From: a virus
Direction: 5' to 3' (one strand)
DNA length: 44,588 bases
Virus record (IMG/VR): IMGVR_UViG_3300021963_000222
Coordinates: 1 to 44,588 of that record
Position 1 is the first letter of the stretch, and the number at the start of each line of letters is the position of its first letter. The position numbers were made by a program, and so were the translations under genes. Below, piece by piece: positions 1 to 16,371 of this stretch. The notes below the pieces were generated by a model. It did no database searches. It was not told the DNA's origin and saw nothing but the letters and a program-made list of their open reading frames with translations.

Positions 1-898
1 AGAAGACATCTCCCATGAAGGAAACATATCTCTCGTCTTCGCTATCTCCTTCTACCTTAAATGTATCAATCCCTTTTTCTAAGATAAAGTTCATTACATC
101 AAGAAGAGTAAGTCCTAGGAAATCGCTAGGTTTGTTCTCCTTCTGCTTCATGCTCTTGTCTTTAGCCATCTGGGTAAAGACTGGATCGACCATCTTGGCA
201 AGCACAGGCTCGGATTCCTTGTTTGGATCACCAAATCTAAATACTATTCCTTCTACGTCCTTATCCAAATCCTCATTGAGAGCAGTCTTTTTAAGCTCCG
301 GATTTAGAGTTCCGATGATGAATCTAACAAAGCTTTGAGTCTTAAATCTCTCAACAAGCTGATCAAACGGGGTTCTCAGAAACTCTGTGATCTTACTCTT
401 CTGCTCATCGGTCAAATATCCCTGGAAGATGATAGGAGCCCTATCAATTCCGAGCAAGTCGGCCCAATCATCTAGTTCTTTCTTGTCTTGGATTGTCTTC
501 TTGATCTTTCCATCATCCCCATACTCGTGGACATATGACAAAAGAAGGTGATTCTTCGGAATAGAGTCATACATGATCTCTACCGGCTTGTTGTTAGCAA
601 AGTACTCAAGACCAAATCTCCATCCTCTTGGAATTTTTTCCAAAATGTGAGGTGGAAGGGATTCAATATACTGAATTGGCTTCTCGTAGTACTTCATCAG
701 AGTTCTATCAACGAAGGTGATTGGATTTCTCTGATCTCTTCTGTAGAACTTAAACTTTCCGGTTTCTTTATCTCTTTCAAAAGTGAACGCGGACCCGTCC
801 ATCTTTTCATTGACAGTCACGAAGGTGTTGAAGAGTTGTTCTATAAACTCTTGTCCCTTCTTGTTGTAGATATCATATAGGTGATTTATCCCCGACAT
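1..898 (-). CDS. RNA-ligase-type nucleotidyltransferase (3' end outside window)
   Basis: The frame starts at ATG 898-896 and stays open to the window edge, giving 298 residues without a stop, so the C-terminus is missing. It carries the covalent nucleotidyltransferase signature of ATP-dependent ligases and capping enzymes: motif I KMDGS with candidate nucleotide-binding Lys32, motif III FGLEYF with Glu98, motif IV EGIV at 216-219, and a motif V-like AKMV with Lys235. Spacing fits an RNA ligase better than a DNA ligase, and no OB-fold is obvious in the visible part. The probable reaction is enzyme-AMP formation followed by joining or adenylylating a nucleic acid end. At least 60 residues follow motif V, so another domain may lie beyond the edge. 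It is the last gene seen in a run containing a second, unrelated nucleotidyltransferase, which suggests RNA repair or modification (inference). Superfamily is confident; exact substrate is unknown. Confidence 0.72.
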   Translation of the reverse strand, partial: MSGINHLYDIYNKKGQEFIEQLFNTFVTVNEKMDGSAFTFERDKETGKFKFYRRDQRNPITFVDRTLMKYYEKPIQYIESLPPHILEKIPRGWRFGLEYFANNKPVEIMYDSIPKNHLLLSYVHEYGDDGKIKKTIQDKKELDDWADLLGIDRAPIIFQGYLTDEQKSKITEFLRTPFDQLVERFKTQSFVRFIIGTLNPELKKTALNEDLDKDVEGIVFRFGDPNKESEPVLAKMVDPVFTQMAKDKSMKQKENKPSDFLGLTLLDVMNFILEKGIDTFKVEGDSEDERYVSFMGDVF

Positions 899-900
899 AT

Positions 901-1350
901 TTAGTTCAGTATTATTCTTCTCTTATTTCCTTGCTTATCAACAAAAATAAAAAATGGACCATAAGAGAAACTTTCTCCAAGATCGACCTTTCCCATTGTG
1001 GCTAAAATTGCCAGACCTTCCCTTGTCATTCTAACAAACTCTTTTGATTGTTCTTTGATTGGAGAAGATATCAATGTTTTTAAGCACTTCATGTATTCGT
1101 CTATCGAGGGAGCATTCCCCTCATGAGTTATTATAGAGTAAACTTCGTTTTCTATTTCATAAATTTTTGAGTCATTTACTAAAATGTCCCAGTTTCCTCT
1201 CTCGTTCGGTATAACTAATCCGTAATTTCCCAATGCTGTTTCAAACGATACTCCTAAGTCGTCCCTAAATATACGGACTGGAGAGTCACTCTCGAGAAAA
1301 TGATCAAGAGCACTAAACATTAAATCGGTATGAACTTGGGTAAATCCCAT
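901..1350 (-). CDS. hypothetical protein, 149 aa
   Basis: I do not recognise this protein. It is soluble-looking, mildly acidic, and has no signal peptide, membrane segment or Cys cluster. The N-terminal half reads as alternating strands (around residues 25-75) and the middle as helices (80-120). The C-terminus has a strand pair, with FFIFVDKQGNKRR around residue 132 looking like a beta-hairpin. Its ATG shares one base with the stop of the upstream nucleotidyltransferase gene (TAATG), which indicates translational coupling, so the two products are probably made together. An antitoxin, chaperone or accessory subunit role would fit that coupling, but no motif supports one. Confidence 0.75.
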   Translation of the reverse strand: MGFTQVHTDLMFSALDHFLESDSPVRIFRDDLGVSFETALGNYGLVIPNERGNWDILVNDSKIYEIENEVYSIITHEGNAPSIDEYMKCLKTLISSPIKEQSKEFVRMTREGLAILATMGKVDLGESFSYGPFFIFVDKQGNKRRIILN

Positions 1351-2276
1351 TATTGGAGGGTGTCGATTTCAGATGGCATAATTAGAGGTGTTCTTTCGAG
1401 ATATCTCTTAAACTCGTCTCTAATCTCTGCTCTATTTTGTTTGTTCTTGAATTTTGGGGACTTAATTGCGGCAAGAAGGTCCTCAAAGGTCTTAACCTCA
1501 TCTGGACTAAATCCGGGGCCCATCGCAAAGTTTAAAAACTCTTGAGGGTTGTTGGTAACAAGTTCTCTTGGCATTCCATCGACTTTAACTGGATTTTTTA
1601 GTCTTCCCTTCTTTCCCCGGAACGTCTTTCTCGTCTTAAAAAGACCATCGCTAAAATCAAAAACATAGGTGTCTATATCTAGAGGTTCCCCATTTTCGTC
1701 CTCTGTTACAACGTCTTTCATAGCGGAAAGAATTGACTGGAAAAGCCAGTTTCTGTGTGCAGATTTATATTTACTTTCTCCTTTTCTATAATCGGGGGAA
1801 TAGTATGCAAAAGAAGCCCAATCTAGGTCGGAAAGAGGGATCAGATCCAACTGAACGATCCCAAATCTAGGATCACCTTTAATCGGCCATCCGATACTTA
1901 AAATATTTAGTCCAACCATCAAATTCATCTCCGGATCAAATCCAAGATCATCTGGAAGTTTTTCTTTTAACTCTTCATATAGATTAGCAAGAACTTCCTT
2001 CTTAGTAGAAACCCCCATCGTCTTTGCGGTCTTTTCCCACTCAAATCCAAGGTCCAAGTCGCCAGAAACGTCATCAGGGTTTGGTTTCTTCCCTATACTT
2101 CCAATTACAAGATAGTCACTGCTGTCTTCGTCTATTCCTAAGATGGGGAGTAGAACAGTTTTTATTGAGTCAAAGGTCGCAGGATATTCATCTTCTCTAA
2201 TGGATCTAGATGTTTTAATCGCTGCTCCCCCCTCATTAAGAGCCGAGAATTGTGAAAATGTGTAGATTAAACTCAT
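1350..2276 (-). CDS. Pol-beta-superfamily nucleotidyltransferase with putative capsid-targeting leader
   Basis: This 308-aa protein shows the core of the Pol-beta-type nucleotidyltransferase fold: Gly59-Ser60 in VIGSIGKK, the metal-binding pair in SGDLDLG (Asp73, Asp75), and a third acidic strand VQLDLIP with Asp144. Families with this core transfer NMP to RNA ends, proteins or small molecules; the acceptor cannot be told from sequence. Residues 7-15 read FSQFSALNE and are followed by Gly-Gly-Ala. This resembles the T4 capsid-targeting sequence, cut by prohead protease after (I/L)-x-Glu and before a small residue. The catalytic core begins well after that site, so cleavage would leave it intact. 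The upstream 161-aa gene carries a similar leader and the downstream 149-aa gene overlaps by one base. The fold is fairly secure; packaging and injection are inference. Confidence 0.65.
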   Translation of the reverse strand: MSLIYTFSQFSALNEGGAAIKTSRSIREDEYPATFDSIKTVLLPILGIDEDSSDYLVIGSIGKKPNPDDVSGDLDLGFEWEKTAKTMGVSTKKEVLANLYEELKEKLPDDLGFDPEMNLMVGLNILSIGWPIKGDPRFGIVQLDLIPLSDLDWASFAYYSPDYRKGESKYKSAHRNWLFQSILSAMKDVVTEDENGEPLDIDTYVFDFSDGLFKTRKTFRGKKGRLKNPVKVDGMPRELVTNNPQEFLNFAMGPGFSPDEVKTFEDLLAAIKSPKFKNKQNRAEIRDEFKRYLERTPLIMPSEIDTLQ

Positions 2277-2762
2277 TTATTTCTTCATTCTTTTTACTAT
2301 TTCATTCTCACCTTTTCTGATCGTATCAGCAAATTTCTTCTGGTCTTCTCCCTTGGGGTTGTTATAGTCCCAGGACTTTCCATATCTCTTGAATGCGGTT
2401 TCCTCGGATTTTTTAACAAACTTCTCCAGATCTTTCTCTGTAGTAGTTGGGCCTAAATCTTCTCTCCATCCGCTAAAAGCATCTTGTGTGTCTTCTTTCT
2501 TCTTTTCCTTGGATTCTCCTTTTTCGTTCTTCTTTCCAAGAATATCTGCAGTAGCTGCTCCAGCTCTAAAAAGACCAGAAAGAACTTTATTTAGAACGAT
2601 GTCCCCAAACATTTTTTGTGAAGAAGCTTCAGATTTTACGTTTGCTCTCATCCTTTCCAATTTTCTTCCGAGTTCTGTTCTTCTGTCCTTTCCCAAATAA
2701 GAAAAATCGTTATAATAGGACTCATTTACAGAGAACTCTTTGAAATTCATGAAATTTTTCAT
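2277..2762 (-). CDS. hypothetical protein with putative capsid-targeting leader, 161 aa
   Basis: This is a small, highly charged, Lys-rich protein with a predicted helical character and a low-complexity stretch of alternating Lys and Glu near residues 78-90. No enzymatic motif is visible. The start reads MKNFMNFKEFSVNE followed by Ser, similar to the T4 internal-protein leader MKTYQEFIAE followed by Ala (established: that leader targets proteins to the prohead core and is cut by gp21 after Glu). Small, basic, charged composition is also typical of T4 internal head proteins. Its stop lies directly against the start of the nucleotidyltransferase gene. The most likely role is an internal capsid protein ejected with DNA, inferred from the leader only. 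A scaffold-core component is an alternative. Confidence 0.6.
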   Translation of the reverse strand: MKNFMNFKEFSVNESYYNDFSYLGKDRRTELGRKLERMRANVKSEASSQKMFGDIVLNKVLSGLFRAGAATADILGKKNEKGESKEKKKEDTQDAFSGWREDLGPTTTEKDLEKFVKKSEETAFKRYGKSWDYNNPKGEDQKKFADTIRKGENEIVKRMKK

Positions 2763-2807
2763 CTTAGTTATGCCAAAAAATATTTCATCTATATATCTAA
2801 AGAAGGA

Positions 2808-4331
2808 CTAAAGAGTTATTCTAAAGATCTTATAGTCAAAATTCTCGTTTTTGTAAATTGCAATTCTAGCTTCACTGTGCTTCATGAGATAGTTTTTATA
2901 ACCAACCGTGCTAAAATCATCTACAAAGTCGATAATATTCACCTTTTCTTTACCCTCCATCTTTCTCATTCCCCTACCAAGACTCTGTTTAATCAGAACT
3001 TCACTCTTGTAAGACTCAACTAAGAAGATGTTGTGCAGATTGTTAATCGAGATACCGGTCGAGAAAGTTCCATATGTTGCAATCAGAACCTTATTTTCTC
3101 CCGTCTCCATTCTAGACTTATATTCTTCTCTTAATTGCTCGTTGGTGTCTCCGTCTACGTAGAATGCCTCTTTAGTTGCATTTGTTTCCCTAATCCCGTT
3201 CCAGATATTTCTCCCATATTCATCCTTTACCGACTGGAAGAGAACTAGAGAATTCTTAGAAGTCTTATTTATGAAATCTACTATATAATTGAGTCTCGCC
3301 TTGTTTGAAATTACAAGCTTTCTCTCCAAGTTGTAGAGATCATTTCCCTCCATCTTTTCCGAACTAGACTTTAGCTCTGCTAGTTTGTCCTTATATTCAG
3401 GGGACAGCCAATCCAGAATAACCACCTTGATGGCAACTGGTGTTGCATAGTTATTTCTGAATAGAAAGTCTGGAGAAATTTCCACCAAGACGGGGCCAAG
3501 ATACTGTTGAATGGTCAGGTGATCTGCAGATCCTCTTTTAGTTAGAGTTCCGGTTAGACCAAATCTCCATCCGGTGTGCATGCAGTTGGACATGATCTTC
3601 TTAATAGAAGTCGAGTTGGTGTGGTGTGCTTCGTCGATAAAGACCGCATCAAATTCTTCAAAATAGTCCTTATCTTTCTTTACCAGAGACTGGAAAGTTC
3701 CAATAACAACATCACATCCTTCTCTCATCTTACTTCCTCCCCCGATCTGTTGGATCTTGCTGCCAATCTTGTCTATTCCATAGTCTTCAAAATCCTCCGT
3801 GCCCTGGATCACTAGGTTTGTGCTAGGCACGATCATTAGGAATTTCCTTATGTAACCTTGAGACTTGAGGAAAGCGAAGATCATAAATGAAATAAGAGTC
3901 TTTCCTGAAGACGTTGCAATCTCGGAGACTGAGTATCTAAACTTAACAATCTTCCAAGCTGCTTCAATCTGATAATCTCTTGGCTCAATGTCGCTGTCTT
4001 TGAAGAACTCATCAACCCAAGCCTTAAAATCTTCCAGTTTCAAGTCGGTCAAAAACAGTCTTTCGATTCCCTCGATGTGAAACTCATATCTATATTCTTT
4101 TCCAATCTCTAAAACTTCTGACCAAAGACCAATAGGAATTTTCCAGAAAGGCCCTCTCTTGTCTATAAAATTTATACTTCCGTCCCAGATCTTCTTCTTT
4201 ACCAGCGGGTGGAAATACCAGTTGTGAATCTTCTTTGTTAGAGAAAGCTCAACCTGCTTCTTTTCAACCTCGTCAGTGCACTGAGCTAGAATTAACCACT
4301 GATTATCTTCTGATAGATTAAACTTAATCAT
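2808..4331 (-). CDS. uvsW: UvsW-like SF2 helicase
   Basis: This is a superfamily 2 helicase of the T4 UvsW type, 507 aa (T4 UvsW is about 500). Visible motifs are a Walker A variant ATSSGKT (139-145), DEAH box (233-236), motif III GLTGT (258-262) and motif VI QSLGRGMR near residue 447. The first ~100 residues form the substrate-binding N-terminal domain, followed by the Q-motif-like RDYQIEAAWK at 118-127. UvsW reverses stalled forks, migrates branches and unwinds R-loops, moving T4 from origin-dependent to recombination-dependent replication. The UvsY-like gene lies immediately upstream (13-nt gap), the same pairing as in T4. No Shine-Dalgarno precedes the ATG. Identification is secure. Confidence 0.93.
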   Translation of the reverse strand: MIKFNLSEDNQWLILAQCTDEVEKKQVELSLTKKIHNWYFHPLVKKKIWDGSINFIDKRGPFWKIPIGLWSEVLEIGKEYRYEFHIEGIERLFLTDLKLEDFKAWVDEFFKDSDIEPRDYQIEAAWKIVKFRYSVSEIATSSGKTLISFMIFAFLKSQGYIRKFLMIVPSTNLVIQGTEDFEDYGIDKIGSKIQQIGGGSKMREGCDVVIGTFQSLVKKDKDYFEEFDAVFIDEAHHTNSTSIKKIMSNCMHTGWRFGLTGTLTKRGSADHLTIQQYLGPVLVEISPDFLFRNNYATPVAIKVVILDWLSPEYKDKLAELKSSSEKMEGNDLYNLERKLVISNKARLNYIVDFINKTSKNSLVLFQSVKDEYGRNIWNGIRETNATKEAFYVDGDTNEQLREEYKSRMETGENKVLIATYGTFSTGISINNLHNIFLVESYKSEVLIKQSLGRGMRKMEGKEKVNIIDFVDDFSTVGYKNYLMKHSEARIAIYKNENFDYKIFRITL

Positions 4332-4344
4332 GGTCTATATATTG

Positions 4345-4824
4345 TTATTTAATGGTACTACCCCTTAAGTAGTCTTCAAGAGATATGCGACTTTTGATCC
4401 CATAAAGCATGTGATCCACGGTTTGGATGGTCTGATCGATGTATTTTCTATGTCCCTCTACCAGCTGCATCTTCTCGCTCAGTTCGGCTAGGTCCCCTTC
4501 GATGAGAGTCGTCTTCTCGTTTGCTCCATATCTAATGTCCTTTCCTTCTGTGTATTCTTTCAGCTTCTTGGCTCTCATCTGTCTTTCCTTGGTCGACAGC
4601 TTAGAAATTATTTGTGCGAGCTTGTAGCTATATTCTAGCAGAGTCTGACGGGTAGAAAACAAATCCACCTGTGCTTCCGCAACGGTCTTAATGTTCTTGA
4701 TGTGCAGAGAAATAACTTGGATCTTCTCCCTCCATTCCGCTCTCTCCCTCTCGAACATCTTTCCGAAGTCGGTGGGCTGTTGTTCCTCTGGAACCGGGTT
4801 GTATTCTGGAAATACTTCTGACAT
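4345..4824 (-). CDS. uvsY: UvsY-like recombination mediator
   Basis: This 159-aa, mostly helical protein has a sequence pattern like T4 UvsY (137 aa), the mediator that loads the UvsX recombinase onto gp32-coated ssDNA. The recognisable stretch is KLKEYTEGKDIRYG around 87-100, then a K-T-x-L-I-x-x-D block (104-111), and GIKSRISLEDYL around 142-153. These match in order the T4 blocks DYYSGRGD, MKTVLSADKD and AIKSRGFAIKHIQD. The first ~25 residues are Pro/Glu-rich and look like an added disordered tail. Its position directly upstream of uvsW reproduces the T4 arrangement, which strengthens the call. Similarity is modest by eye, so a profile search should confirm it. No UvsX lies in the window. 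Confidence 0.68.
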   Translation of the reverse strand: MSEVFPEYNPVPEEQQPTDFGKMFERERAEWREKIQVISLHIKNIKTVAEAQVDLFSTRQTLLEYSYKLAQIISKLSTKERQMRAKKLKEYTEGKDIRYGANEKTTLIEGDLAELSEKMQLVEGHRKYIDQTIQTVDHMLYGIKSRISLEDYLRGSTIK

Positions 4825-4825
4825 C

Positions 4826-5056
4826 TTAAAATAGTCCTTTCTTGTCTTTTTTATTTTTTCCTAACTGTATGACCCTTACCGCCTTCTCCTGCTTCTTTGG
4901 CGGAAGCAGAGTAAGATGATCGGGTATTTCTTCTATTGGTGGAATCTGGTCGTGAAAGGTGACCGGAAACTTTAGCTTTCCATCTCCCTCTACTTTGTCC
5001 AGGGACTCCTCCCATAATTCTGTATTTTCGAATGATAAATTTATTTCAAACATCAA
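4826..5056 (-). CDS. small hypothetical protein, 76 aa
   Basis: I do not recognise this protein. The N-terminal half is acidic and strand-like (FEINLSFENTELWEESLDKV), a proline-rich linker follows around residues 37-53, and the last ~20 residues are strongly basic and end in KKDKKGLF. An acidic body with a basic tail could suit a small replisome accessory or DNA-binding adaptor, but nothing proves that. The start overlaps the end of the primase gene by 11 nt and its stop nearly touches the UvsY-like start, so it is part of the primase-uvsY-uvsW operon. Met1 and Met2 are adjacent and either could be the start. Confidence 0.7.
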   Translation of the reverse strand: MMFEINLSFENTELWEESLDKVEGDGKLKFPVTFHDQIPPIEEIPDHLTLLPPKKQEKAVRVIQLGKNKKDKKGLF

Positions 5057-6116
5057 TAAAATCTTTTAGGTCTAAAACCTCTTCTGTAAAATAGTAATCA
5101 AATCTTCTGATCTTGAGTCCTTTGGATCTCAAGAAGTTAACTAGATCATTTAAGTCCCATTTTTTATTGGTTGGAAGTTGGTGATCTTCCAAGAATTTTC
5201 TCCAGTTGAAGACTGTTGCTCCTTCTGCTAGAAACTCTGAAGACTTTGCTCTTCCTGCATTATCCCAGTCATACCAGAACTGGAGATTGTCCATCTCGAA
5301 TGGAAATCTGTTTTCCACCGAACATAGAGCTACCGAGTTCTTCCAGAGGAAAGAGTCCATAGGTCCTTCAAAGATTGTGATTGTGTCGTTGAAAGAAATG
5401 GTTCCTATGTTGAACACAGTCGAAATTGGATCTATCTTCCTGCATCCATTTAAGAATTCCTCATCTGTGCATCCCAGAAGTTTCTCCCAGATTCCGCTGA
5501 GCTTGTAGGTGTAGTATTTAGATCCGGTATTTCCCCCTCCGTGCTGCATATTTCTGAACTGGAGTCCAAGAATATTTCCTTCCCGGGAGAGATTAAAGAT
5601 ATAAAGTCTCTGCTTTGCAGGATCCCAGGCAAACTTTTGATCTGGATTTTGGTTCCTTCTGGTGAGATAAATTTCAATCTTAGAACCTCGAGCTTCTTGA
5701 AGTCCCATTCTTTCCATAAACTCAGACCTGGGGATGATGTATTTTTTAATATCGTCGTCGAAGAATAGGGAAATATCAATATCTCCGTAGTACGTCTTAC
5801 GCTTCTCCTTCCTGCTGTGTAGCGTGTCTAGAATCTCAGTCCTCTCGTCTTGACCAACCTTATCGATCATGCCGTAATCTTTAAGGATGCTATACATGTC
5901 TTTAAAGATACCGCATCCGCCATTATAACACTTATAAGATAAAGTGTCTAGGTAGAAATTTCCTCTCTTCTTTCTTCCATCTCTGCTGTCTCCGCAGTAT
6001 GGACAGGAGAAGTTGAGTCTATTTCCTGCTCGGTATATTTTGTGCTTGGACGGTTCTCCTGGAAATTCTTTAACCAGGACAGTGGTCAACAGGTCTTCTA
6101 TTCTGGATTCTTGCAT
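5046..6116 (-). CDS. 61: DNA primase, gp61-like
   Basis: This is a DnaG-type primase of 356 aa (T4 gp61 is 342). The N-terminal zinc-binding domain has Cys38, Cys41, Cys63 and Cys68 (CPYCGDS, then CYNGGCG). The Toprim catalytic domain is shown by IFEGPMDSF (acidic Glu in motif I) and WYDWDNAG (the DxD pair) in residues ~235-300. It makes short RNA primers for lagging-strand synthesis together with a replicative helicase not present here. The gene starts 13 nt beyond the terminator hairpin that follows gp32, so it needs read-through or a promoter inside that short gap. No Shine-Dalgarno is visible. It heads the run primase, 76-aa protein, uvsY, uvsW. Confidence 0.9.
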   Translation of the reverse strand: MQESRIEDLLTTVLVKEFPGEPSKHKIYRAGNRLNFSCPYCGDSRDGRKKRGNFYLDTLSYKCYNGGCGIFKDMYSILKDYGMIDKVGQDERTEILDTLHSRKEKRKTYYGDIDISLFFDDDIKKYIIPRSEFMERMGLQEARGSKIEIYLTRRNQNPDQKFAWDPAKQRLYIFNLSREGNILGLQFRNMQHGGGNTGSKYYTYKLSGIWEKLLGCTDEEFLNGCRKIDPISTVFNIGTISFNDTITIFEGPMDSFLWKNSVALCSVENRFPFEMDNLQFWYDWDNAGRAKSSEFLAEGATVFNWRKFLEDHQLPTNKKWDLNDLVNFLRSKGLKIRRFDYYFTEEVLDLKDFIDV

Positions 6117-6128
6117 AATTAAAGGGGA

Positions 6129-6156
6129 TAAAAAAGGGGTCTTGTAAGACCCCTTT
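6129..6156 (-). terminator. rho-independent terminator after gene 32
   Basis: A perfect 10-bp stem (AAAGGGGTCT pairing with AGACCCCTTT, 6133-6142 and 6147-6156) with a 4-nt loop lies 9 nt past the stop of the SSB gene. On the minus strand it is followed by six T residues (plus-strand A run 6130-6135). It should end or attenuate the abundant SSB transcript before the primase gene, as T4 gene 32 is also followed by a terminator. Confidence 0.92.
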
Positions 6157-6165
6157 AGGTTCTTA

Positions 6166-7137
6166 TTATAGATCTTTATAAAGATCGTCTAATGATGAAG
6201 CCGATGATGTGCTCGGACTCGATGAAGTCTGAACTTTAGTTGGGGTAGAACCAACGTTGGTTGAAGAAGCTTCGTTGAAGAATTCTTGTGTCGAAGAAGA
6301 CACTGAAGCTGCAGGTGAGCTGTAAGAATTAGAAGAGTTAGAAGATGCTGCTGCTCCACCTAGAACTTCGCTAACCAATCTTCCATCAGGAACTGTGTTT
6401 CTGATAACAGACATTACCTTCTCGGTTGTCTCGTTGTCCCAATCTTTGTAGTCGAAAGAAGTAAGATTCTGAGGACCAGTCTTTAGATACTCAACGATTG
6501 CGTTCATATCGTCTTGATTCTTCTCCATTTTCTTACCGCTGACTTCGATAGGACATCTTTCACCTACGAAAGAACATAGGTCGTAATTGTTCCACTCACC
6601 AACTTTTCTAGCGTGGATTGAGAAAAGCTTACCGTTGAATAAATCGAAAGGATTTACTGGCTCGCCATACTCAGGCTTTAACTGAGCTTCGATCATATCG
6701 TTTAGTTTTTTACCAAACTTGAAGATCATAATTTTTCCTTCTAGCTCAGGTCTGTTCTTGTCCTGAACGATTTGAATTAGAGAATAGTAATCCTCTTTTC
6801 TGCTGAAGTTCTTAGAAAGTTCTTTGTCTGCTGCAGAATTTGAATTCTGAAGCTTCCAGAAGATGTCTTTCAAGACAGACTTCTTACCCACAGTTGAAGG
6901 ACAGTCTACAGAAAAACCATTACCTGTTGAAGGGTCTTTTAGGTAAACGTAATACTTGTGGATTTTTGATTTTGTGGGTTCACTTGAGTTAGGAACGAAT
7001 CTAACTAATGATTTGTAAACACCGTCCTTTCCGTCTTCTGGATAGGGTTTGTAAAATTCTAGATCTTTAGATCCTTCTTTTTTTACTGGAGTCACTAAAG
7101 ACTCTGCGTCGAGATTGAAAATGTCCAAATTGCTCAT
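6166..7137 (-). CDS. 32: single-stranded DNA-binding protein, gp32-like
   Basis: This is a T4 gp32-type SSB of 323 aa (T4: 301). It coats ssDNA in replication and recombination and works with UvsY and UvsX. Core features match in order: GVYKSLVRFVP (39-49), LEGKIMIFKFGKK (132-144) and WNNYDLCSF (182-190). The C-terminus is Ser-rich and ends in SLDDLYKDL, closely like the T4 tail ending DLDDLLNDL, which recruits partner proteins. An extended Ser/Ala linker (~265-315) precedes it. The T4 zinc ligands (His64, Cys77, Cys87, Cys90) are not conserved: Cys79 fits the second, but the C-x-x-C pair is absent. The gene has a 99-nt leader and its own terminator, as expected for a strongly and separately controlled gene. 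Confidence 0.88.
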   Translation of the reverse strand: MSNLDIFNLDAESLVTPVKKEGSKDLEFYKPYPEDGKDGVYKSLVRFVPNSSEPTKSKIHKYYVYLKDPSTGNGFSVDCPSTVGKKSVLKDIFWKLQNSNSAADKELSKNFSRKEDYYSLIQIVQDKNRPELEGKIMIFKFGKKLNDMIEAQLKPEYGEPVNPFDLFNGKLFSIHARKVGEWNNYDLCSFVGERCPIEVSGKKMEKNQDDMNAIVEYLKTGPQNLTSFDYKDWDNETTEKVMSVIRNTVPDGRLVSEVLGGAAASSNSSNSYSSPAASVSSSTQEFFNEASSTNVGSTPTKVQTSSSPSTSSASSLDDLYKDL

Positions 7138-7236
7138 GATTTCTTTTAAATTTTTTTAGTTGTTTGTTTTAAATTACACTTATTAAACTCCGGAATCCTC
7201 TAAATGTTTCTTTGAAACATCATATATATCCGAAAT
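7138..7236 (-). promoter_or_regulatory. gene 32 leader: hairpin plus A-rich run, candidate operator/promoter
   Basis: This 99-nt gap is long for this compact block. Read on the minus strand it has a TATATAT-containing segment, then a 7-bp inverted repeat ATGTTTC-AAA-GAAACAT (7204-7220), then about 50 nt rich in A (7138-7187) running into the start codon with no Shine-Dalgarno. T4 gp32 represses its own mRNA by nucleating at a folded 5' element and spreading over an unstructured A/U-rich leader. The layout here is similar, and the function is inferred from that. A promoter probably lies in the distal part. Confidence 0.45.
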
Positions 7237-7902
7237 TTATCCATTTTTTATCGTTTCTTGCAAAAAAAGGCAGATCCAAGAAGCATCTACCAGATCGTCG
7301 ATCGGCTTGTTTACCTGCTTGGATTTGGTAATCCAAGACGAAGCATGCTTAGCGATAACATCGGTAAAGTCGGAGAAATTTCCTCCTGCAGTCGGAGCCT
7401 TTTCTACCAGTGCATGATACATCTCGTCCTTCTTGAAGTTGCCTTTTCCTGCAAACTTCTTGATTGCAGTCGGTGGAAAAACATAGAAGTTTTTTGACCC
7501 GATCTTGTCCACAATCTTTTTCCTAATGAGAGCTGTTGCCATCGAGATGTCAATCAAGGCATTTCCATTGGAGGAAAAGCTGAGTCCCTCAATGGCGATC
7601 TTAACATCCTCCCCTTCAATGAATGGCTCGATATGATACCAGAACACATCTACAATATCTTGAAAATAGTCAATCTTGACCCTTTCTCTGGCAGAATATT
7701 CTTCCGGCATCTCCTTCTTGGTTAGAAAAAAGAGATCTATATCGGGATCCCCATCCAAAATGGCATAGGGTTTGTCCTTTGACTTTCTGAGAGACTCTGC
7801 AGTTCTGTCGGTTCTAGTTAAACTTCCCCAGTTATACCTTCCGTCTTTGTAGACGCAGAATGCAGGAGACGTTAATGAAAAGTCTATTCCAATATAGATC
7901 AT
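7237..7902 (-). CDS. RuvC-like Holliday junction resolvase
   Basis: This 221-aa RNase H-fold nuclease is of the RuvC type. Strand 1 carries GIDFSLTSPA with catalytic Asp7, strand 4 carries IAIEGLSF with Glu105, and the C-terminal helix carries IDDLVDASW with Asp203 and Asp206. The PPTAIKKFAGKGNFKKDEM stretch (143-161) is the usual RuvC region (P-x-x-x-K...G-x-G...K). It probably resolves Holliday junctions and branched DNA before packaging. T4 uses the unrelated gp49 endonuclease VII for that job, so this phage appears to have an alternative. It lies immediately upstream of gene 32, in keeping with a replication-recombination role. The middle ~60 residues are longer than in cellular RuvC. Confidence 0.85.
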   Translation of the reverse strand: MIYIGIDFSLTSPAFCVYKDGRYNWGSLTRTDRTAESLRKSKDKPYAILDGDPDIDLFFLTKKEMPEEYSARERVKIDYFQDIVDVFWYHIEPFIEGEDVKIAIEGLSFSSNGNALIDISMATALIRKKIVDKIGSKNFYVFPPTAIKKFAGKGNFKKDEMYHALVEKAPTAGGNFSDFTDVIAKHASSWITKSKQVNKPIDDLVDASWICLFLQETIKNG

Positions 7903-7937
7903 AAAAATGTTATAGTGATTAGTGAGAGATAAGTTCT

Positions 7938-8255
7938 CTAGTCCTGGATAGAACTAAAAGTTAGGGTAACCAGAGTATCAGTGGTAAAATCCAGGGTCAC
8001 TATTTTATTATCTGTTAAAGAAGATAAGATTAGTGATATTTCCTGAAAAATCTGATATGCTAGGTCAGTTTTGGCAAATTCAACCACAGTTCCATAGTAG
8101 ATTTTTCCAGCACTTAAAGGTCCTGCCGTTGATAGGGATCTAAAGTACAGATAGACTGAGCTCTGATCAGATTTCATCTCTGAAAAACTCCTCACCGAGA
8201 AAGAACTATACAATTTTTCTGATCCAGAAAGATAAGCAATTCTAATGAACTCCAT
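7938..8255 (-). CDS. hypothetical protein, 105 aa
   Basis: I do not recognise this protein. It is Ser/Thr/Leu-rich with alternating hydrophobic residues, suggesting an all-beta or alpha/beta small domain. No signal peptide, Cys pairs or catalytic motif is visible. Its start shares one base with the stop of the preceding 111-aa gene (TAATG), so the pair is translationally coupled. Composition (Ser-rich, low charge) resembles the neighbouring virion proteins more than the replication proteins that follow, so a minor tail or head component is the likelier role. That is context-based inference only. Confidence 0.65.
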   Translation of the reverse strand: MEFIRIAYLSGSEKLYSSFSVRSFSEMKSDQSSVYLYFRSLSTAGPLSAGKIYYGTVVEFAKTDLAYQIFQEISLILSSLTDNKIVTLDFTTDTLVTLTFSSIQD

Positions 8256-8590
8256 TAGCTAGAAAGAATTGTTTGTGACAGGGAAAAACCAGAGCTATAG
8301 AAGTTCAGGTAAGAGATAGAACTGCTAGCTAAAATAGCATTATTCCAAAGGGATTCCATATAGTTTCCCGAGCCAGTAGCTCCAGTAGCTCCGGTTACTG
8401 CATAAAAATCCAAAAGTGTTTGGAAATTGGTAGAAGAAGAAAGAACCGAACTAGAGTTGACCGAGTCTAAAAAAATATAAAATTTAGTAGGAGATGTCTT
8501 ATAAGATCCGACTAATTCCGGATTAATAGAAACAGAAAGAGGATTCCCATTGGAGTCAAGACCATATTGAATTTGAATAAGACTTGACAC
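8255..8590 (-). CDS. small probable virion protein with GATG motif, 111 aa
   Basis: I do not recognise the family. The protein is Ser-rich and beta-prone, and contains the short glycine-triplet stretch TGATGATGSG at about residues 66-75, the same type of element seen in most large structural proteins of this window. That shared element and its place beside the tail-tube-like gene suggest a virion component. Its stop overlaps the start of the 105-aa gene by one base, so both are probably expressed together. No enzymatic or membrane feature is visible. Confidence 0.65.
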   Translation of the reverse strand: MSSLIQIQYGLDSNGNPLSVSINPELVGSYKTSPTKFYIFLDSVNSSSVLSSSTNFQTLLDFYAVTGATGATGSGNYMESLWNNAILASSSISYLNFYSSGFSLSQTILSS

Positions 8591-8598
8591 GGGTGAAA

Positions 8599-8844
8599 TT
8601 ACATTTTAGGCTGTACTGCTTGTCCTACTTGTCCAGTATATTGATAAACTTTAGCTAGCTTGTTGAAGCACTTCTCCATCTGCTCATCGGTTAGACAGTC
8701 AACGATGTCGTTTAGGACCCTTTGGTCGTTTCCAGAAGCAGCAACCAGAGTGTTTTTCATGTGTTGCTTTAGGTCATTTTTACCATACATTGGCTGACCG
8801 TACTTCATTTCGTTTATCTTGGTTAGTTCAGAAAATTTTCTCAT
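8599..8844 (-). CDS. small protein with putative capsid-targeting leader, 81 aa
   Basis: This is a short, mainly helical protein. Its first residues, MRKFSELTKINE, align without gaps to the leader of the nucleotidyltransferase at 1350-2276 over nine positions (F-S-E-L-T-K-I-N-E against F-S-Q-F-S-A-L-N-E). They end in the (I/L)-x-Glu pattern cut by T4-type prohead proteases, although the next residue is Met, not a small one. The body has a basic helix near 24-33 and an acidic helix (DCLTDEQMEKCFNKLAKVYQY) near 48-68. It may be an internal head protein. A small baseplate or tail chaperone is the alternative, given the tail-tube-like neighbour. Confidence 0.6.
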   Translation of the reverse strand: MRKFSELTKINEMKYGQPMYGKNDLKQHMKNTLVAASGNDQRVLNDIVDCLTDEQMEKCFNKLAKVYQYTGQVGQAVQPKM

Positions 8845-8888
8845 CTCTTTTATTATTTTATAGACTATATATCTCGACTCGATAAAAA

Positions 8889-9440
8889 TTATCTAGCCAT
8901 ATCGAGATCAATTCCTAGGTAGTTGTAGTTAAATCCGGCGGTGAATGCTGTTGCCGTCGGAGCATTCTGGGTGTAGTTCAAATTCAGCTCAGAAAGAGAA
9001 GCTATTGTTACCCCCTTAAATTGGACAGTTGCTACTACGTTTCCAGAGTTATCCAGAACCTGGAGAGGTAAATTCTCCACAAATAAATCGGGATTCTTAA
9101 AGTTAAGGTGTTCAAGCATCGTCTCCAACATCACGAAGTAGTTGATAAATCCAGAAGCCATTCTAAATGTAACAGAAAATCCCTGAGAGAATAAGTTCTG
9201 AATTGGGGTAGCTGATTGGTATGTTATCTTCTTACCTAGAGGTCTAGTCTGAGTTACATTGTCCACCTGCAGAGATGGGAACGTGACAGACTGAATAGTG
9301 CTATTCATGTACTGGGTCAGAGTATCATAGGGAATCGATTGATTCTTGATGTACTGAAAATACTTTGTTTCTATCCCAGGAGGAAAAAATCCCCTAGGGA
9401 AGACAAAGTAAAAACTATTGGATCTTGCGTTTAATATCAT
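8889..9440 (-). CDS. tail tube-like protein (gp19 or tube-initiator family)
   Basis: This 183-aa protein reads like a phage tail-tube fold. It has a beta-rich N-terminus, TIQSVTFPSLQVDNV (48-62), a central helix FINYFVMLETMLEHLN, a strand pair LQVLDNSGNVVATVQFKGV and a final hairpin FTAGFNYNYLGIDL. T4 gp19 has the same order, with a 'sel.l.y' strand before the last hairpin (here LSELNLNY). Tube proteins form the inner rigid channel for DNA. Homologous folds also occur in baseplate initiators (gp48, gp54), and a myovirus normally has several copies, so which one this is cannot be settled here. No sheath gene is in the window. The gene is followed by small proteins and preceded by a large structural gene. 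Confidence 0.55.
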   Translation of the reverse strand: MILNARSNSFYFVFPRGFFPPGIETKYFQYIKNQSIPYDTLTQYMNSTIQSVTFPSLQVDNVTQTRPLGKKITYQSATPIQNLFSQGFSVTFRMASGFINYFVMLETMLEHLNFKNPDLFVENLPLQVLDNSGNVVATVQFKGVTIASLSELNLNYTQNAPTATAFTAGFNYNYLGIDLDMAR

Positions 9441-9462
9441 CGTGTTGTCTTATGGATAAATG

Positions 9463-11952
9463 TTACTGCTGGACTGCAGGTGGTCTAGAAGTCCCGGAAT
9501 CCCCTCCTGTTGCATTTCCGGTTGATCCCTGGTTAGAAGCAGATCCTCCATTAGTTTGCCCAGCGTTGGTGTTTCCATAGTTGTTTAGAATTGTAAGATC
9601 AGCATCTGTAAATATCCCCTTAACTGCATCCGTGAAGATCTTCTTAGTTATTCCCACGTATAGTTTATATCCAGGAGACTGAACGTTCAAGAAGTAGTTG
9701 ATAATATATTGAACGGTTATTCCCTCCGATAACATAGATTTAACAGCCAGTGAAATTGCAGACTTTAGTTCAGTGGTTGATAATCTTTGACCAGACGAAG
9801 CCGAGTTGGATGGTCGAGTAACCTCTACTCCATTTTCACTTGTGAAAGCAAATCCTGTTGCTGCCGTTCCTCCTCCAGTTTGTGGCTGGGTGTTGAGAAT
9901 ATTATTTCCCACTGAAACTGGAAGTGCCGCAGATCCTAAGAATGCAGTAGCAGAAGTAGGCTGATTTGTGTTGGTCTGTACAACAGTAGCAGTTGCTCCG
10001 GTAGCTCCACTAGTTGGAGATGTACTTGGGATCGGTTCATCGACTTTCAGCCAGTTTCCATAGTAAAGAACTGAAGAAGCATTAGCAGAAACTGTTAAGA
10101 CCCCACTCAAGAGACTTTGGTCTATATTCTGAGCAGAAAGAACAACGTCTTTAATGCTGTCATTTAAAGCAGTAGATCTGCTAGCTAGTGCATTTTTTGC
10201 AGCTCCTGTGGTTGGGATCTGATCACTGACAATATTTGGATCGTTTGCTGCAGGAGGACGATTTGTAATTGTATATGTTCTGTTTGTATATTGAAGAACA
10301 TCGGTAGCCAAAGTTTCAGAAACTTTGAAAGCAAGTTCCCCTTTGGCCGGATTTGCTATGTTTTTATCGTCAATTGTTGGGGCAGAAACTTTCTTGTTAC
10401 TATTGTTAAGAAACACCATGTAATAAGTTCCAGAAGATTCTAGATCGATCAGTTGGGTGTTTCCGTCTGCTCCCTGTTTATAGAAAGTAAACTTATAATA
10501 GTTGTCGAATGGACTTATTCTAATGTATGCTTTTCCTTGTCCATACACGGTCTGGTCCTGTACAGATCCCCCGTCTGCTTGGGTGATTGTTGTTCCTTTT
10601 ACCACCAGATTAGTCATCGTGGTGTTTACGAGGTTTCTCTCGTAGAAGACGTTGCTGTACTTAACAATAATCCTAGGAGTTGGATTTGAACTCGGAACGC
10701 TGATGTTCGTCTCCGTCGCTACTTTATTGTAGATCTTCTGAACCTGTGGAAGATTCTGAAGTTGAAGGGGAGCAATATAGGCACCATACTTGGCTGGGTT
10801 ATTATATGTCACAGAAGCTATTCTAGTGACCCTAGACTGATCTACAGAGTTTACCAAGGTCATAGTATACCTTAGATTAAAAGTCGAAGCCACACCGGAG
10901 TTTCTGATGATTGGCCTGTAGAGATTCGGAATGTCGTAGGCATTAGTCTGGATCGTATAGAAATTAGCAGTCTGGATGAAAGCTGTTCCTATCTGTTCAA
11001 AAACTTTAATGTCGTTCTGGATGTAGTATTGATTCCCGATGGAATTCTGGAAGAGAATAAAATCTTCAATAAATCCTCCATTGTCAGTTGCAAAATACTC
11101 AAAGAAGTCCCCAGTATCTGCAGGAGAAATGTAGGCTCCAATATTTCTAAAAGGATCCTCAGATTCAAGAGAAAGAGTTGAAATTAGGTTAGCTCCATAA
11201 GTAACATATCCTGTAGTCAGAGTTGTATTTAGAACCTCATAGGCTCTAACTCTCATTGGGGATCCAACCACAAATCCTTTCCCACTGTGACTCAGGAGAG
11301 CTGCAGGAGTTAAAGATGGTGTTGGGGAAGAAATGTACTGATTATTTAGATTGACTAAACTCGGAACCTTAATCTCAAAGTACTTGTCATAGGAGTTAAT
11401 TCCTATCATTAAAGGACTTGGGTTTAGAGTGTATTGTCCAGCAAATCCGCTATCTATAAAGATTTGAGAAAAGGTCACATAAGTTCCATCAACGTCTAGG
11501 AAATCTATTCCGAGAATAACTCCATCGATATTACCCAAGTTGTAACCTGCTAGAATGTGATATCTAACAGAGTCATAAACGATTGCAAAGTTGCTCGAAA
11601 AATCCACAGGAAGATCTGCAGTTGAAGTCAACTTAGGATTGAAGTCGTTATATGGAATAATGTAATTTGGATTAAGCGGAATAAAGCTATTATCCGTAAC
11701 TCTAACAACGTTATTTAGGGTTGTATTTTTTGTAAGACTGTAGTTCTGACTTTGGTTAAAAATCTGAACCCCATTATCGGCAGTTCCACCAATCGACTGG
11801 ACCATTCCATTGATCAATTTATCATAGGAAACAGTTGTGCTTCCCGTGTTGACGTTATACGTCTCTGGATTGGGTTGATCCGCATACATGTACTCCATGA
11901 CCATGTAAGGGGTCAGTTGTACATATTTGGATGTGGTAGTATATGTTGCCAT
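9463..11952 (-). CDS. large virion structural protein, 829 aa
   Basis: The family is not recognised. The protein is Asn/Ser/Thr/Tyr-rich, poor in charge and Cys, and mostly beta, as expected for a tail or baseplate component. The N-terminal ~250 residues look like one beta-rich domain. A segment near 560-600 is rich in Ala and Asn. A mini GATGAT element sits near residue 650. A short helical domain (ELKSAISLAVKSML and following, ~725-790) precedes a disordered Gly/Asn/Ser tail ending in RPPAVQQ. It lies between the membrane protein and the tail-tube-like gene, so it may belong to the tail tube or baseplate hub surroundings. A virion role is very likely; the exact role is unknown. Confidence 0.7.
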   Translation of the reverse strand: MATYTTTSKYVQLTPYMVMEYMYADQPNPETYNVNTGSTTVSYDKLINGMVQSIGGTADNGVQIFNQSQNYSLTKNTTLNNVVRVTDNSFIPLNPNYIIPYNDFNPKLTSTADLPVDFSSNFAIVYDSVRYHILAGYNLGNIDGVILGIDFLDVDGTYVTFSQIFIDSGFAGQYTLNPSPLMIGINSYDKYFEIKVPSLVNLNNQYISSPTPSLTPAALLSHSGKGFVVGSPMRVRAYEVLNTTLTTGYVTYGANLISTLSLESEDPFRNIGAYISPADTGDFFEYFATDNGGFIEDFILFQNSIGNQYYIQNDIKVFEQIGTAFIQTANFYTIQTNAYDIPNLYRPIIRNSGVASTFNLRYTMTLVNSVDQSRVTRIASVTYNNPAKYGAYIAPLQLQNLPQVQKIYNKVATETNISVPSSNPTPRIIVKYSNVFYERNLVNTTMTNLVVKGTTITQADGGSVQDQTVYGQGKAYIRISPFDNYYKFTFYKQGADGNTQLIDLESSGTYYMVFLNNSNKKVSAPTIDDKNIANPAKGELAFKVSETLATDVLQYTNRTYTITNRPPAANDPNIVSDQIPTTGAAKNALASRSTALNDSIKDVVLSAQNIDQSLLSGVLTVSANASSVLYYGNWLKVDEPIPSTSPTSGATGATATVVQTNTNQPTSATAFLGSAALPVSVGNNILNTQPQTGGGTAATGFAFTSENGVEVTRPSNSASSGQRLSTTELKSAISLAVKSMLSEGITVQYIINYFLNVQSPGYKLYVGITKKIFTDAVKGIFTDADLTILNNYGNTNAGQTNGGSASNQGSTGNATGGDSGTSRPPAVQQ

Positions 11953-11960
11953 TTAAGAGT

Positions 11961-12560
11961 TTATTTTATTTTCCAGCTCACAGACCCTCTAAGATATGGA
12001 GTAATGTTTGAATTGATTCCCATTCCGACCCCAAATAGCATGTCTTTTTTAGTCTTTAGCTGAATATCTCCTCCAAGGGAAGCAGGATTTCCAAGCTGAA
12101 AAGATGGTCCGATAAACCAAGCATTGCTAAGTTCTTTTAGGTATATAGTTTCTTTAATGGTTGGAATATTAATTGAAGTGTAGTATTTTCTTCCAACTAT
12201 TCTGTTTCTAGAAATTGTGTCGTTAACTGCAATATACCCAAGGGTGTCCTTTAATTTAAATGTATCGCTGTAAAAAATTCTAGCATAGTAGTCCTTCAGG
12301 ATTGAAGCTGTATCTACATTTGCAGGTATTTCTTTCACAACTTCGACCTCATGAACGATGTCTTCGCCTTTTTTGTATCTAGTTTCGATTTTAGTTTCAT
12401 AGAAGGTATCAATCTCGTGTTTGATAACTTCATAGTCCTTTCCATTGATTCTTAGAGTATCCCCAGCCTTCTTCTTTCCAAAACATCCCTCTTGATAAAG
12501 AATGATTAGGATAAGCCCAAGGATAACAATGTAAGGTGTGGTTTTTTTAAGATTCTTCAT
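11961..12560 (-). CDS. membrane-anchored envelope protein, candidate spanin-like lysis protein
   Basis: This 199-aa protein has a basic start (MKNLKKT), one hydrophobic segment (about residues 9-23) and a long charged region, and the last ~50 residues alternate polar and apolar like outer-membrane beta-strands (GPSFQLG..., FGVGMGINS, LRGSVSWKIK). A Cys at 26 follows the hydrophobic segment but the preceding residues (Q-E-G) make a poor lipobox, so a signal anchor is more likely than a lipoprotein. An inner-membrane anchor with a periplasm-spanning middle and an outer-membrane-like end suggests a one-piece spanin (inference). It overlaps by 14 nt with a coiled-coil gene upstream. A host-envelope remodelling or superinfection protein is the alternative. 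Confidence 0.5.
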   Translation of the reverse strand: MKNLKKTTPYIVILGLILIILYQEGCFGKKKAGDTLRINGKDYEVIKHEIDTFYETKIETRYKKGEDIVHEVEVVKEIPANVDTASILKDYYARIFYSDTFKLKDTLGYIAVNDTISRNRIVGRKYYTSINIPTIKETIYLKELSNAWFIGPSFQLGNPASLGGDIQLKTKKDMLFGVGMGINSNITPYLRGSVSWKIK

Positions 12561-12807
12561 TTTCTTTAGTATCGTATATTAATGTGAAAGGATTCAACTT
12601 TCCTGGCCCGTATTTAGATTCAAGATCTTTGACGAATTCTATCTCCTCGTCTCTTAGCTCATTTAGCTGTTTGATGAGACCTTCTGCTCTTTTGTTCATC
12701 ATTTCAATTTCAATCTGAACTCCTTGAATTTGAGCATGAACATCGGTGAATTTAGTCTTTAGATTTCTTGCTCTCTTTTCCTCTTTGATAGTTAAATTTT
12801 TCTCCAT
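12547..12807 (-). CDS. small coiled-coil protein, 86 aa
   Basis: Residues ~5-60 form one continuous charged amphipathic helix with heptad-like spacing (alternating Leu, Ile, Met with Lys and Glu), so a coiled-coil dimer is expected. The C-terminal 25 residues (GPGKLNPFTLIYD onward) are extended and end in an acidic tail. There is no signal or membrane segment. The 3' end overlaps the start of the membrane-protein gene by 14 nt, indicating coupled expression and perhaps a joint function in lysis or envelope control. It also lies directly after the two collagen-like fibre genes, so a fibre-assembly chaperone is an equally reasonable guess. Confidence 0.65.
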   Translation of the reverse strand: MEKNLTIKEEKRARNLKTKFTDVHAQIQGVQIEIEMMNKRAEGLIKQLNELRDEEIEFVKDLESKYGPGKLNPFTLIYDTKENEES

Positions 12808-12829
12808 ATTTATCTGTTTTTCTTTATAG

Positions 12830-14860: not shown

Positions 14861-16332
14861 TAAACAGTAAATATCCCAGAGACAGACGCTGTGTCGTAGT
14901 AAATTAGCCAGTTGCTAGCTCCGGTTTTTAATACCGTCGCATTGACTACTGGGGTTGCGGTAAAGTTAGCATTTCCTGAGCTGGCAGTTCCACCGATGCT
15001 GTATGAAATACCGGATATCCATCCAGAGCTAGAAGAAGCAGAGCTAAATATACTCATGCTTATAGACTCCCCAACTGAAAGATAATCGGAAAGTCCAGTG
15101 GATCCAGAATTCAAAGGAATCCCAACTCCAATTCCACCGGTTCCTCCCGTTAAGTTCACAACTACCCGGTTTCCGTTGGTCAAAACGTTAGACCCTATTA
15201 TATAGTAATTTTTTCCAGAAATTGTGTACGTTGGACTCGATGCCGTATAAGTCGAATAAGCAAAATTTGTTTTGTCAAATTTAACCTTGCCGTCAGATCT
15301 AACGTAGAATTTACTTGTTCCAGATACTAAGAAATTTGCAAGGAATCTACTGCTCGAAGCCGATCCAACCAAATTAACATATAGTCCCCCGCCTGTAGAG
15401 GTATTCGAGAATGAATACATGTAGCTTCCTCCGAATGCTCCGGATACTGTAACGGGGACATTAAAGAATGCAGAGTTTGCACTTAGAGAAAATTGGTTTG
15501 ACGAGATTAAAAGGTTAGAGCTGCCAGAGTTAATATTGAATGTTCCAACAGAGGTAAGAGAGATGGAAGTAGTAGCACTAAGAGTTGTGGTTACTCCGCT
15601 GAAATTAACGTTTCCTGTTGTGCTTTGGATGTTTAAATTTCCTCCGGATACTATATCTAATAGATCTCCGGGAACTACAAATCTTAGGCCATAATCATTT
15701 CCAGAAGGATTTTTCCATTGAAAAAACGGGTGCCTGTTATAGTCCGCTGGGGTTCCTATATTTGGAGAGTTACTCTTTCCAAATTCCAGAATAGGAAATC
15801 CATTCGATGCATTGGTAGAGATTAAAAATTTAGAATATGTTGGATTCGCGCTTGTTGGACTAGAAGTGTCGTCGCTAAAGACAAACGTATTACTCCCTGG
15901 TGTTGCAGAGGATTGAACGATTGCATTTTTTGTTGTCACGGATCCTGGGCCAATGATTCCAGTTAGAGTTGTAAATACGTCTGATGCCTGAAGGGAATCC
16001 CCGGTTGCTGTCCATCCTCCTGTAGCGTAGGTGTAAACCTCATTGTCTGCAGAAGTGTCTACCCAATAGTCTCCATAAACTATCCCAACTCCAGCAGTTC
16101 CTCCTAAAGGTTCAGTTAGAGAAATAAACCATCTAGTTCCTCTCGTTCCGGGAACTCCTTGATCTCCTTTGGGTCCGATTGGTCCGATTGGTCCTTGATC
16201 TCCCTGAGATCCTTCTTGACCCTGAGGTCCTCCTCCACTGGCAACAATTGACCCGAAGTTCTGATTTATTTTATTAACCAAAACCTCCTGGGTATCTCCT
16301 GGATTTAGATTTATAATAGTTAAATTGGGCAT
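14860..16332 (-). CDS. collagen-like tail fibre protein, 490 aa
   Basis: The protein begins with a short module ending in KINQNF (21-26), then a collagen-like Gly-x-y stretch (33-65) containing GPIGPIGPKGDQG. A conserved head domain (RWFISLTEPLGG, YGDYWVDTS) is followed by a Ser/Thr/Gly/Asn-rich beta shaft to the end. The block NAIVQSSATPGSNTFVF matches NAIVIGATSPSSATFVF in the downstream 676-aa fibre, and both continue with a (S/N)ANP-x-YSK-(F/I)-LI segment, so the genes arose by duplication. This copy lacks the helical C-terminal module of the other. It is likely a trimeric fibre or collar whisker that contacts the cell surface. Confidence 0.75.
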   Translation of the reverse strand: MPNLTIINLNPGDTQEVLVNKINQNFGSIVASGGGPQGQEGSQGDQGPIGPIGPKGDQGVPGTRGTRWFISLTEPLGGTAGVGIVYGDYWVDTSADNEVYTYATGGWTATGDSLQASDVFTTLTGIIGPGSVTTKNAIVQSSATPGSNTFVFSDDTSSPTSANPTYSKFLISTNASNGFPILEFGKSNSPNIGTPADYNRHPFFQWKNPSGNDYGLRFVVPGDLLDIVSGGNLNIQSTTGNVNFSGVTTTLSATTSISLTSVGTFNINSGSSNLLISSNQFSLSANSAFFNVPVTVSGAFGGSYMYSFSNTSTGGGLYVNLVGSASSSRFLANFLVSGTSKFYVRSDGKVKFDKTNFAYSTYTASSPTYTISGKNYYIIGSNVLTNGNRVVVNLTGGTGGIGVGIPLNSGSTGLSDYLSVGESISMSIFSSASSSSGWISGISYSIGGTASSGNANFTATPVVNATVLKTGASNWLIYYDTASVSGIFTV

Positions 16333-16371
16333 CTGATTTTTCTTTCTTTATATATTCTAACCTATAAGACC

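Follow-up and report, generated by a model that had tools for sequence, protein, structure and literature searches.

Within IMG/VR virus record IMGVR_UViG_3300021963_000222, two adjacent genes downstream of uvsW encode a 308-residue nucleotidyltransferase and a small basic protein of 161 residues, and the N-termini of both resemble the capsid-targeting leader of the T4 internal proteins. The window analysed here is the entire record (44,588 bases). On the comparisons presented below we consider it likely that both proteins are capsid cargo, packaged and trimmed during head assembly, and the enzyme probably enters the bacterium along with the phage DNA. The type of tag is already known; what would be new here is T4-type tagged cargo with a new enzyme. 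The features concerned are as follows:

1350-2276, minus strand: open reading frame (ORF) of the 308-residue nucleotidyltransferase; FSQFSALNE at residues 7-15, then Gly16
2232..2276, minus strand: predicted capsid-targeting leader of the nucleotidyltransferase, residues 1-15 (MSLIYTFSQFSALNE); predicted cut after Glu15
1350..2231, minus strand: predicted mature nucleotidyltransferase, Gly16 to residue 308 plus stop; carries Gly59-Ser60, Asp73-x-Asp75 and Asp144
2277-2762, minus strand: ORF of the 161-residue small partner; starts MKNFMNFKEFSVNE, then Ser
2721..2762, minus strand: predicted capsid-targeting leader of the 161-residue protein, residues 1-14 (MKNFMNFKEFSVNE); predicted cut after Glu14
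2277..2720, minus strand: predicted mature small partner, 147 residues, isoelectric point 9.56, charge about +8.5 at pH 7

Both N-termini were confirmed in the sequence as the original prediction had read them. It had given MKTYQEFIAE as an example of a T4 leader for the internal proteins and Alt alike, which holds for IPII and IPIII but not for Alt, whose start (MELITELFDED) does not share the internal-protein leader. Likewise, the expected cleavage after (I/L)-x-Glu fits the enzyme (LNE), whereas the site in the window 161-residue protein is V-N-E. The likeness to IPII and IPIII (MKTYQEFIAE↓A, the arrow marking the cut) comprises an aromatic pair at i and i+3, a hydrophobic-x-Glu followed by a small residue, a small basic protein alongside and, here in relatives of the window, a prohead protease and a T4-type capsid protein. 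In T4 IPIII, residues 4 and 7 serve mainly in targeting and residues 8 and 10 in processing (PMC9026906). Unlike in T4, the leader is here also found on an enzyme, its cut is predicted, and in 55 of 59 enzyme products the spacing exceeds that of T4 by two residues (four residues between the second aromatic and the Glu, against two in the other 4). T4 Alt, a packaged and injected ADP-ribosyltransferase, offers the parallel of an enzyme travelling in the head, as proposed here, but differs in predicted chemistry and in the form of its N-terminus. Phage P1 DarB is also loaded into the head by an N-terminal signal (PMC9024508), although the available text of that source reports no consensus for the Dar N-termini.

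Relatives of the enzyme were sampled as the best 80 of 217 obtained from an alignment of the enzyme, together with 27 loci reached via uvsW. A single-sequence scan of viral_contigs had returned no relatives; alignment-based scans then gave 1 and later 217. From the scan of genome_contigs came a single weak relative, L140, whose 3.9-kb contig is binned as Clostridium; L140 has E↓GG without the aromatic pair. Products were chosen by catalytic motif and not by leader, giving 65 distinct sequences; the kept loci L123 and L131 missed the motif pattern and were left out. The junction [LIVM]-x-E↓(G/S)-G occurs at the same position in 60 of the 65, with the aromatic pair present as well in 59, and after clustering at 70% identity it is found in 14 of 16 clusters. 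Among the 60 products the P3 position is L in 38, I in 14, V in 6 and M in 2, and the Glu is followed by GG in 57 products and by SG in 3. Because selection was by catalytic motif, yet 60/65 keep the junction in place, this conservation exceeds chance, and the observation of two leaders is confirmed at the level of sequence comparison.

The form of the leader is kept across the family while its remaining residues vary, and three distant members (L136, L137 and L139) come very close to T4 IPIII, reading MKYIKLFEQFINE↓SGNSI or nearly so. Not all members have the leader. The five products that lack it are all Lak-type, with in-frame TAA stops shortly upstream in these five loci, and the homologues of Atu_ph07, Phosso and PA5oct lack it as well. 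In an alignment of 14 diverse members, in which Gly17 is invariant, the leaderless homologues (Lak, Atu_ph07, Phosso, PA5oct) begin with a Met that aligns with the leader Glu, and the residues after this start (SGMAI, GGRAF, GGAAF, SGNAF) resemble the predicted mature N-terminus. The AlphaFold model of the window enzyme has a mean predicted local distance difference test (pLDDT) score of 89, and residues 1-17 form the only segment below 50. Alignment of homologues had been proposed as a check on whether the leader is conserved separately from the catalytic domain; the comparison shows that it is, with leaderless forms starting at the predicted cut, so by comparison the leader is separable from the enzyme.

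The small partner belongs to a divergent family: in a 35-row alignment, the remaining rows are 18-30% identical to the window protein, and two Phe are among the 13 invariant or nearly invariant columns. A loose leader pattern (aromatic pair, then Glu within 12) is present in all 48 family members and the strict leader pattern in 26 of the 48. The alignment register places the conserved Phe at Phe4 and Phe7 of the window protein; since Phe10 is also present, its aromatic pair could be 4/7 or 7/10. The protein has no Pfam match above cut-off and none in PHROGs or NCBIfam. Its structural model is of low confidence (pLDDT 66.8) and had no match in BFVD at E < 1.

As the window is the whole 44,588-base record, the protease was sought in relatives only. 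PF03420 (T4-type protease) was found in 6 of 25 records, namely G002 and G013 of the window clade and four Lak-type or immuto records, and phrog_207 (T4-type head protease) in 22 of 28 records from relatives of the enzyme as well as in Atu_ph07, PA5oct and Phosso. The capsid proteins of four records were identified by their MKLINE start, one of them covered only in part; all four contain KYCHYHSLNE↓SAGAY, a site predicted from sequence, and the N-terminal stretch before it aligns with that of T4 gp23. The capsid protein tested is phrog_138 (E = 6.5e-37). In G002 and G013, sites of the forms LNE↓S, VNE↓S, VNE↓G, LNE↓A, INE↓G or LTE↓A stand close to the N-termini encoded by the three genes that follow the capsid gene.

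Leader-like N-termini are abundant in several of these records. The leader pattern fits 28 of 144 ORFs in contig G023, 27 of 586 in G026 and 7 of 112 in G046 (one of these seven being a fit elsewhere in the capsid protein), against 0.3, 2.9 and 0.5 expected from internal windows. A stricter N-terminal count gave 9/114 in G013 (2.5 expected) and 7/103 in G010 (1.0 expected). Pooled, 168 of 1673 distinct products match versus 31 of 6561 internal windows, counts that are not independent events since the products are related to each other. For calibration, the pattern matches 4 of 254 T4 ORFs: ipII, ipIII, 61.1 and a longer-start version of 61.4.

Several individual genes deserve mention. In G023 (L169 1294-20000 and L170 894-1232), 21 minus-strand leader genes, mostly with MKHIxxFExFLNE, lie at 1294-20732 in what looks like a cargo island that includes a relative of the nucleotidyltransferase. 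A leader-bearing protein of G002 (83128-83919; L045 11128-11919) adjoins the presumed portal gene and matches phrog_36119, with NTP_transf_2 just below cut-off. In G010, leader-like N-termini occur on an adenylate kinase (L058 16503-17144) and on a RimK-like ATP-grasp protein (L059 14349-15827), and such N-termini are also found on amidase, peptidoglycan-binding (endolysin-like), GDSL lipase and PAP2 proteins (L083 13651-14739, L108 14202-15545, L071 14293-15615 and L136 6562-7713). In T4 itself, the product of gene 61.1 (L165 18966-19130) starts with MKTFKEFIKED, near the internal-protein leader, and is possibly an unrecognised internal protein.

Homologues provide evidence for a virion location. 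A BFVD fold search with the enzyme led to Atu_ph07 (E = 1.8e-17), whose homologue was also found by profile (E = 2.0e-13). It is the 65th coding sequence (CDS) of that genome and lies within CDS 31-76, a stretch from which 29 virion proteins have been identified (PMC6102473), a figure given for the stretch as a whole. The Atu_ph07 protein led by tblastn to PA5oct (E = 1e-3), and a profile built without PA5oct confirmed the relationship (E = 2.7e-11 for that genome). The leaderless PA5oct homologue, EST35_0231, is annotated as "structural protein" with a note of electrospray ionisation tandem mass spectrometry (ESI-MS/MS). This note is carried by 12 of the 18 CDS around EST35_0231 and by 11 of 19 at 80-100 kb, including the portal and capsid protein, compared with 8 of 126 in the first 50 kb. 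An 81-residue neighbour is marked along with the nucleotidyltransferase, while the gene with a KxDG motif, EST35_0228 (no Pfam family match), is unmarked. The window is much alike in that its ligase-like gene lacks a leader. The claim that both window proteins carry capsid-targeting leaders is well supported by the conservation, the leaderless starts at the cut, the protease and capsid site of relatives, the other leader genes and the virion-recorded homologue.

By analogy with T4, the leaders would bring both proteins into the prohead core, where a gp21-type protease of the phage would cut after Glu15 in the enzyme and Glu14 in the partner. The mature proteins, starting at Gly16 and Ser15, would stay in the head and enter the cell along with the DNA at infection. 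For the window phage we infer recruitment, cutting and the injection of both proteins.

By motif and fold the enzyme is a Pol-beta superfamily nucleotidyltransferase, and its catalytic activity is predicted. The Gly-Ser, Asp-x-Asp and third Asp, which the original prediction had described as intact, are indeed present (Gly59-Ser60, Asp73-x-Asp75, Asp144) and do not vary in two family alignments, one of 18 members and one of 14. The best solved structures in Foldseek, Cid1 (1.7e-3) and Pol beta (3.5e-3), are weak matches, with none below 0.001. The VIA fold search gave DNA polymerase X family members (Pol beta, Pol lambda and African swine fever virus Pol X) in the 50 matches shown, tied at Z 9.2-9.6, with the best alignments over 165-191 residues. 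Profile similarity to this family lies within the range of column shuffles: trimmed hhalign against 10 bacterial PolX fragments scored 19.8, and 20 shuffles scored 9.9-23.6, three of them higher. The enzyme has no family match in Pfam, PHROGs or NCBIfam, and hmmsearch of the PDB with its profile found no match up to E = 10. As regards an ADP-ribosyltransferase, there was no Pfam match, and the fold matches shown are of the Pol-beta superfamily. By profile the enzyme is not RlaP: PF10127 gave no match at the enzyme gene up to E = 10 in the window and 8 other records; the same profile did find T4 NrdC.11 and separate genes in Atu_ph07 and Lak-B2. RlaP does resemble the window enzyme in being a Pol-beta-type enzyme encoded close to RNA ligases (PMC7824862), where it is predicted to restore lost nucleotides before ligation; it is not termed packaged in the available part of that source.

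On the minus strand downstream of uvsW, the 161-residue and nucleotidyltransferase ORFs are followed by two further genes, both without leader:

901..1350, minus strand: 149-residue neighbour without leader; cluster of 16 distinct products, absent from some relatives
2..898, minus strand: RNA-ligase-like protein (KxDG, PF09414) without leader, interrupted by the record end

The truncated RNA-ligase-like protein matches PF09414 (RNA_ligase) over residues 27-226, scoring 28.5 bits where the cut-off is 27. In two relatives of full length (634 and 687 residues) the PF09414 match is below cut-off, and a cytidylyltransferase-like domain lies further on. We rejected FNQFVTINEKMDG of this protein as a candidate leader because it is the KxDG region. 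A Pfam scan of the 149-residue protein gave no match. The genes that follow uvsW were compared in 17 relatives: all 17 have the small leader protein and the enzyme, 16 have a ligase-like ORF, and L017 and L018 lack the 149-residue ORF. The window UvsY-like protein (4345-4824) fits the loose leader pattern (FPEYNPVPE), probably by chance; its G013 relative does not.

In 92 of 108 loci (a count that includes overlapping records), a KxDG gene on the same strand is no more than 6 kb away; the remaining 16 comprise the five Lak-type loci, L136-L139, L140 and six more. In Atu_ph07 and Phosso the KxDG gene, matching PF09414 below cut-off, adjoins the enzyme homologue. Because an RNA-ligase-like gene is usually nearby, an RNA-end substrate seems likelier than protein modification in the manner of Alt. 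The original prediction of an injected Alt-like effector with nucleotidyl transfer thus stands as to the packaging leaders, while the ligase-like neighbour points rather to RNA ends, for example those of a tRNA damaged by host defence; this enzyme step is the least certain part. Our tentative functional model, the likeliest of those considered, follows the one published for RlaP: early in infection the enzyme may extend RNA ends with nucleotides and share a pathway with the RNA-ligase-like protein encoded close by. Since only the nucleotidyltransferase and its partner are tagged here, the ligase would be made after infection, in the cell.

That the packaged and injected enzyme instead modifies a host protein, for example by AMPylation or UMPylation as an Alt-like takeover effector, is possible but rather doubtful. 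Pol-beta nucleotidyltransferase domains have been counted among those with which phage polyvalent proteins, themselves predicted to be packaged and injected, would modify proteins (PMC5512222). Two genes away from the Atu_ph07 homologue is a tandem array of nine paralogues (L217 6845-14508, Atu_ph07 41844-49507) with leader-like M(R/K)WxQL(T/N/I)E starts (e.g. MRWEQLTE) and shared YRG(M/I) motifs, and a gene with a Zeta_toxin domain is near. We take the YRGM...S...E of these paralogues, which are possibly packaged, to be ADP-ribosyltransferase-like; the four of the nine scanned had no Pfam match. The frequency of the KxDG gene close by, adjoining in two phages, speaks against a protein substrate, as do the best solved structure matches, which are nucleic-acid polymerases. 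Action on DNA ends is unlikely.

It is improbable that the enzyme is a virion protein kept by another route (neck, tail or core scaffold) and never injected, the leader being only a scaffold-docking tag. The leaderless PA5oct homologue, marked as a virion protein, would fit this explanation, but the leaders resemble those of internal head proteins, and the catalytic residues are kept in 14/14 aligned members, which argues for an active enzyme.

Several observations weigh against packaging by leader. No capsid genes were seen among the larger ORFs of the window record and the protease gene is not in these 44.6 kb; phrog_207 was not found in 6 of 28 records, including the leader-richest one (G023, 126 kb) and three of 150-181 kb, all of which may be fragments. 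The spacing of the enzyme leader is unlike that of T4 IPIII. As the homologue with mass-spectrometric support is leaderless, family members can be virion proteins without the leader, and in phage MIJ3, 98.7% identical to PA5oct, liquid chromatography tandem mass spectrometry of the major gel bands named four proteins in the available part of PMC6892783, the nucleotidyltransferase not among them. The stricter count shows no enrichment in G002 (3/116 versus 2.55 expected). The pattern also reaches two T4 ORFs beyond the known internal proteins (61.1 and the 61.4 version), the window UvsY-like protein, 1 of 46 immuto ORFs and one 64-residue ORF in each of three Lak-type loci, and some leader-bearing proteins resemble cell-wall or lipid enzymes, which would be odd as injected cargo.

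We regard it as very unlikely that the leader serves to bind another phage protein, such as the sliding clamp, and is not a capsid tag. Sliding-clamp motifs are SLF-like, many leaders contain FxSLFE or similar, and the window genes adjoin uvsW and other recombination genes. However, the capsid-protein site and the genes following the capsid gene show a like form, the G013 primase, SSB, UvsY-like, UvsW and RuvC-like ORFs have no such leader, and the small partner and distant members often have FxxF(L/I)xE without LF. That the two N-termini are alike by chance is scarcely credible given the conservation in products and clusters and the count in G023, even with one other window ORF of 31 matching the loose pattern.

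Enzymes delivered with phage DNA are known for few phages. Packaged nucleotidyltransferases, predicted to be injected as here, have previously been placed in multidomain polyvalent proteins (PMC5512222); the enzyme described here, likened to them by description, is single-domain and would be loaded by a T4-type cleavable leader. For such a leader on a nucleotidyltransferase we found no published description in titles and abstract openings, a scope outside which most subscription literature lies, so that absence is unproven. It is quite possible, though we put it forward with reserve, that in uncultivated T4-like large phages one short, protease-removable N-terminal code loads an arsenal of unrelated proteins into the head, one of them a packaged Pol-beta nucleotidyltransferase which, already in the first minute of infection, would set about repairing or rewriting RNA ends, and that this cargo can be read from sequence. 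The basis for the arsenal is the set of leader ORFs in G023, 21 of which lie within 20 kb. A leader kept apart from its cargo and resembling the site of the capsid protein would make it possible to list, from sequence, the proteins that uncultured phages inject. If the substrate is RNA, RNA repair would precede phage gene expression and could meet host anticodon nucleases.

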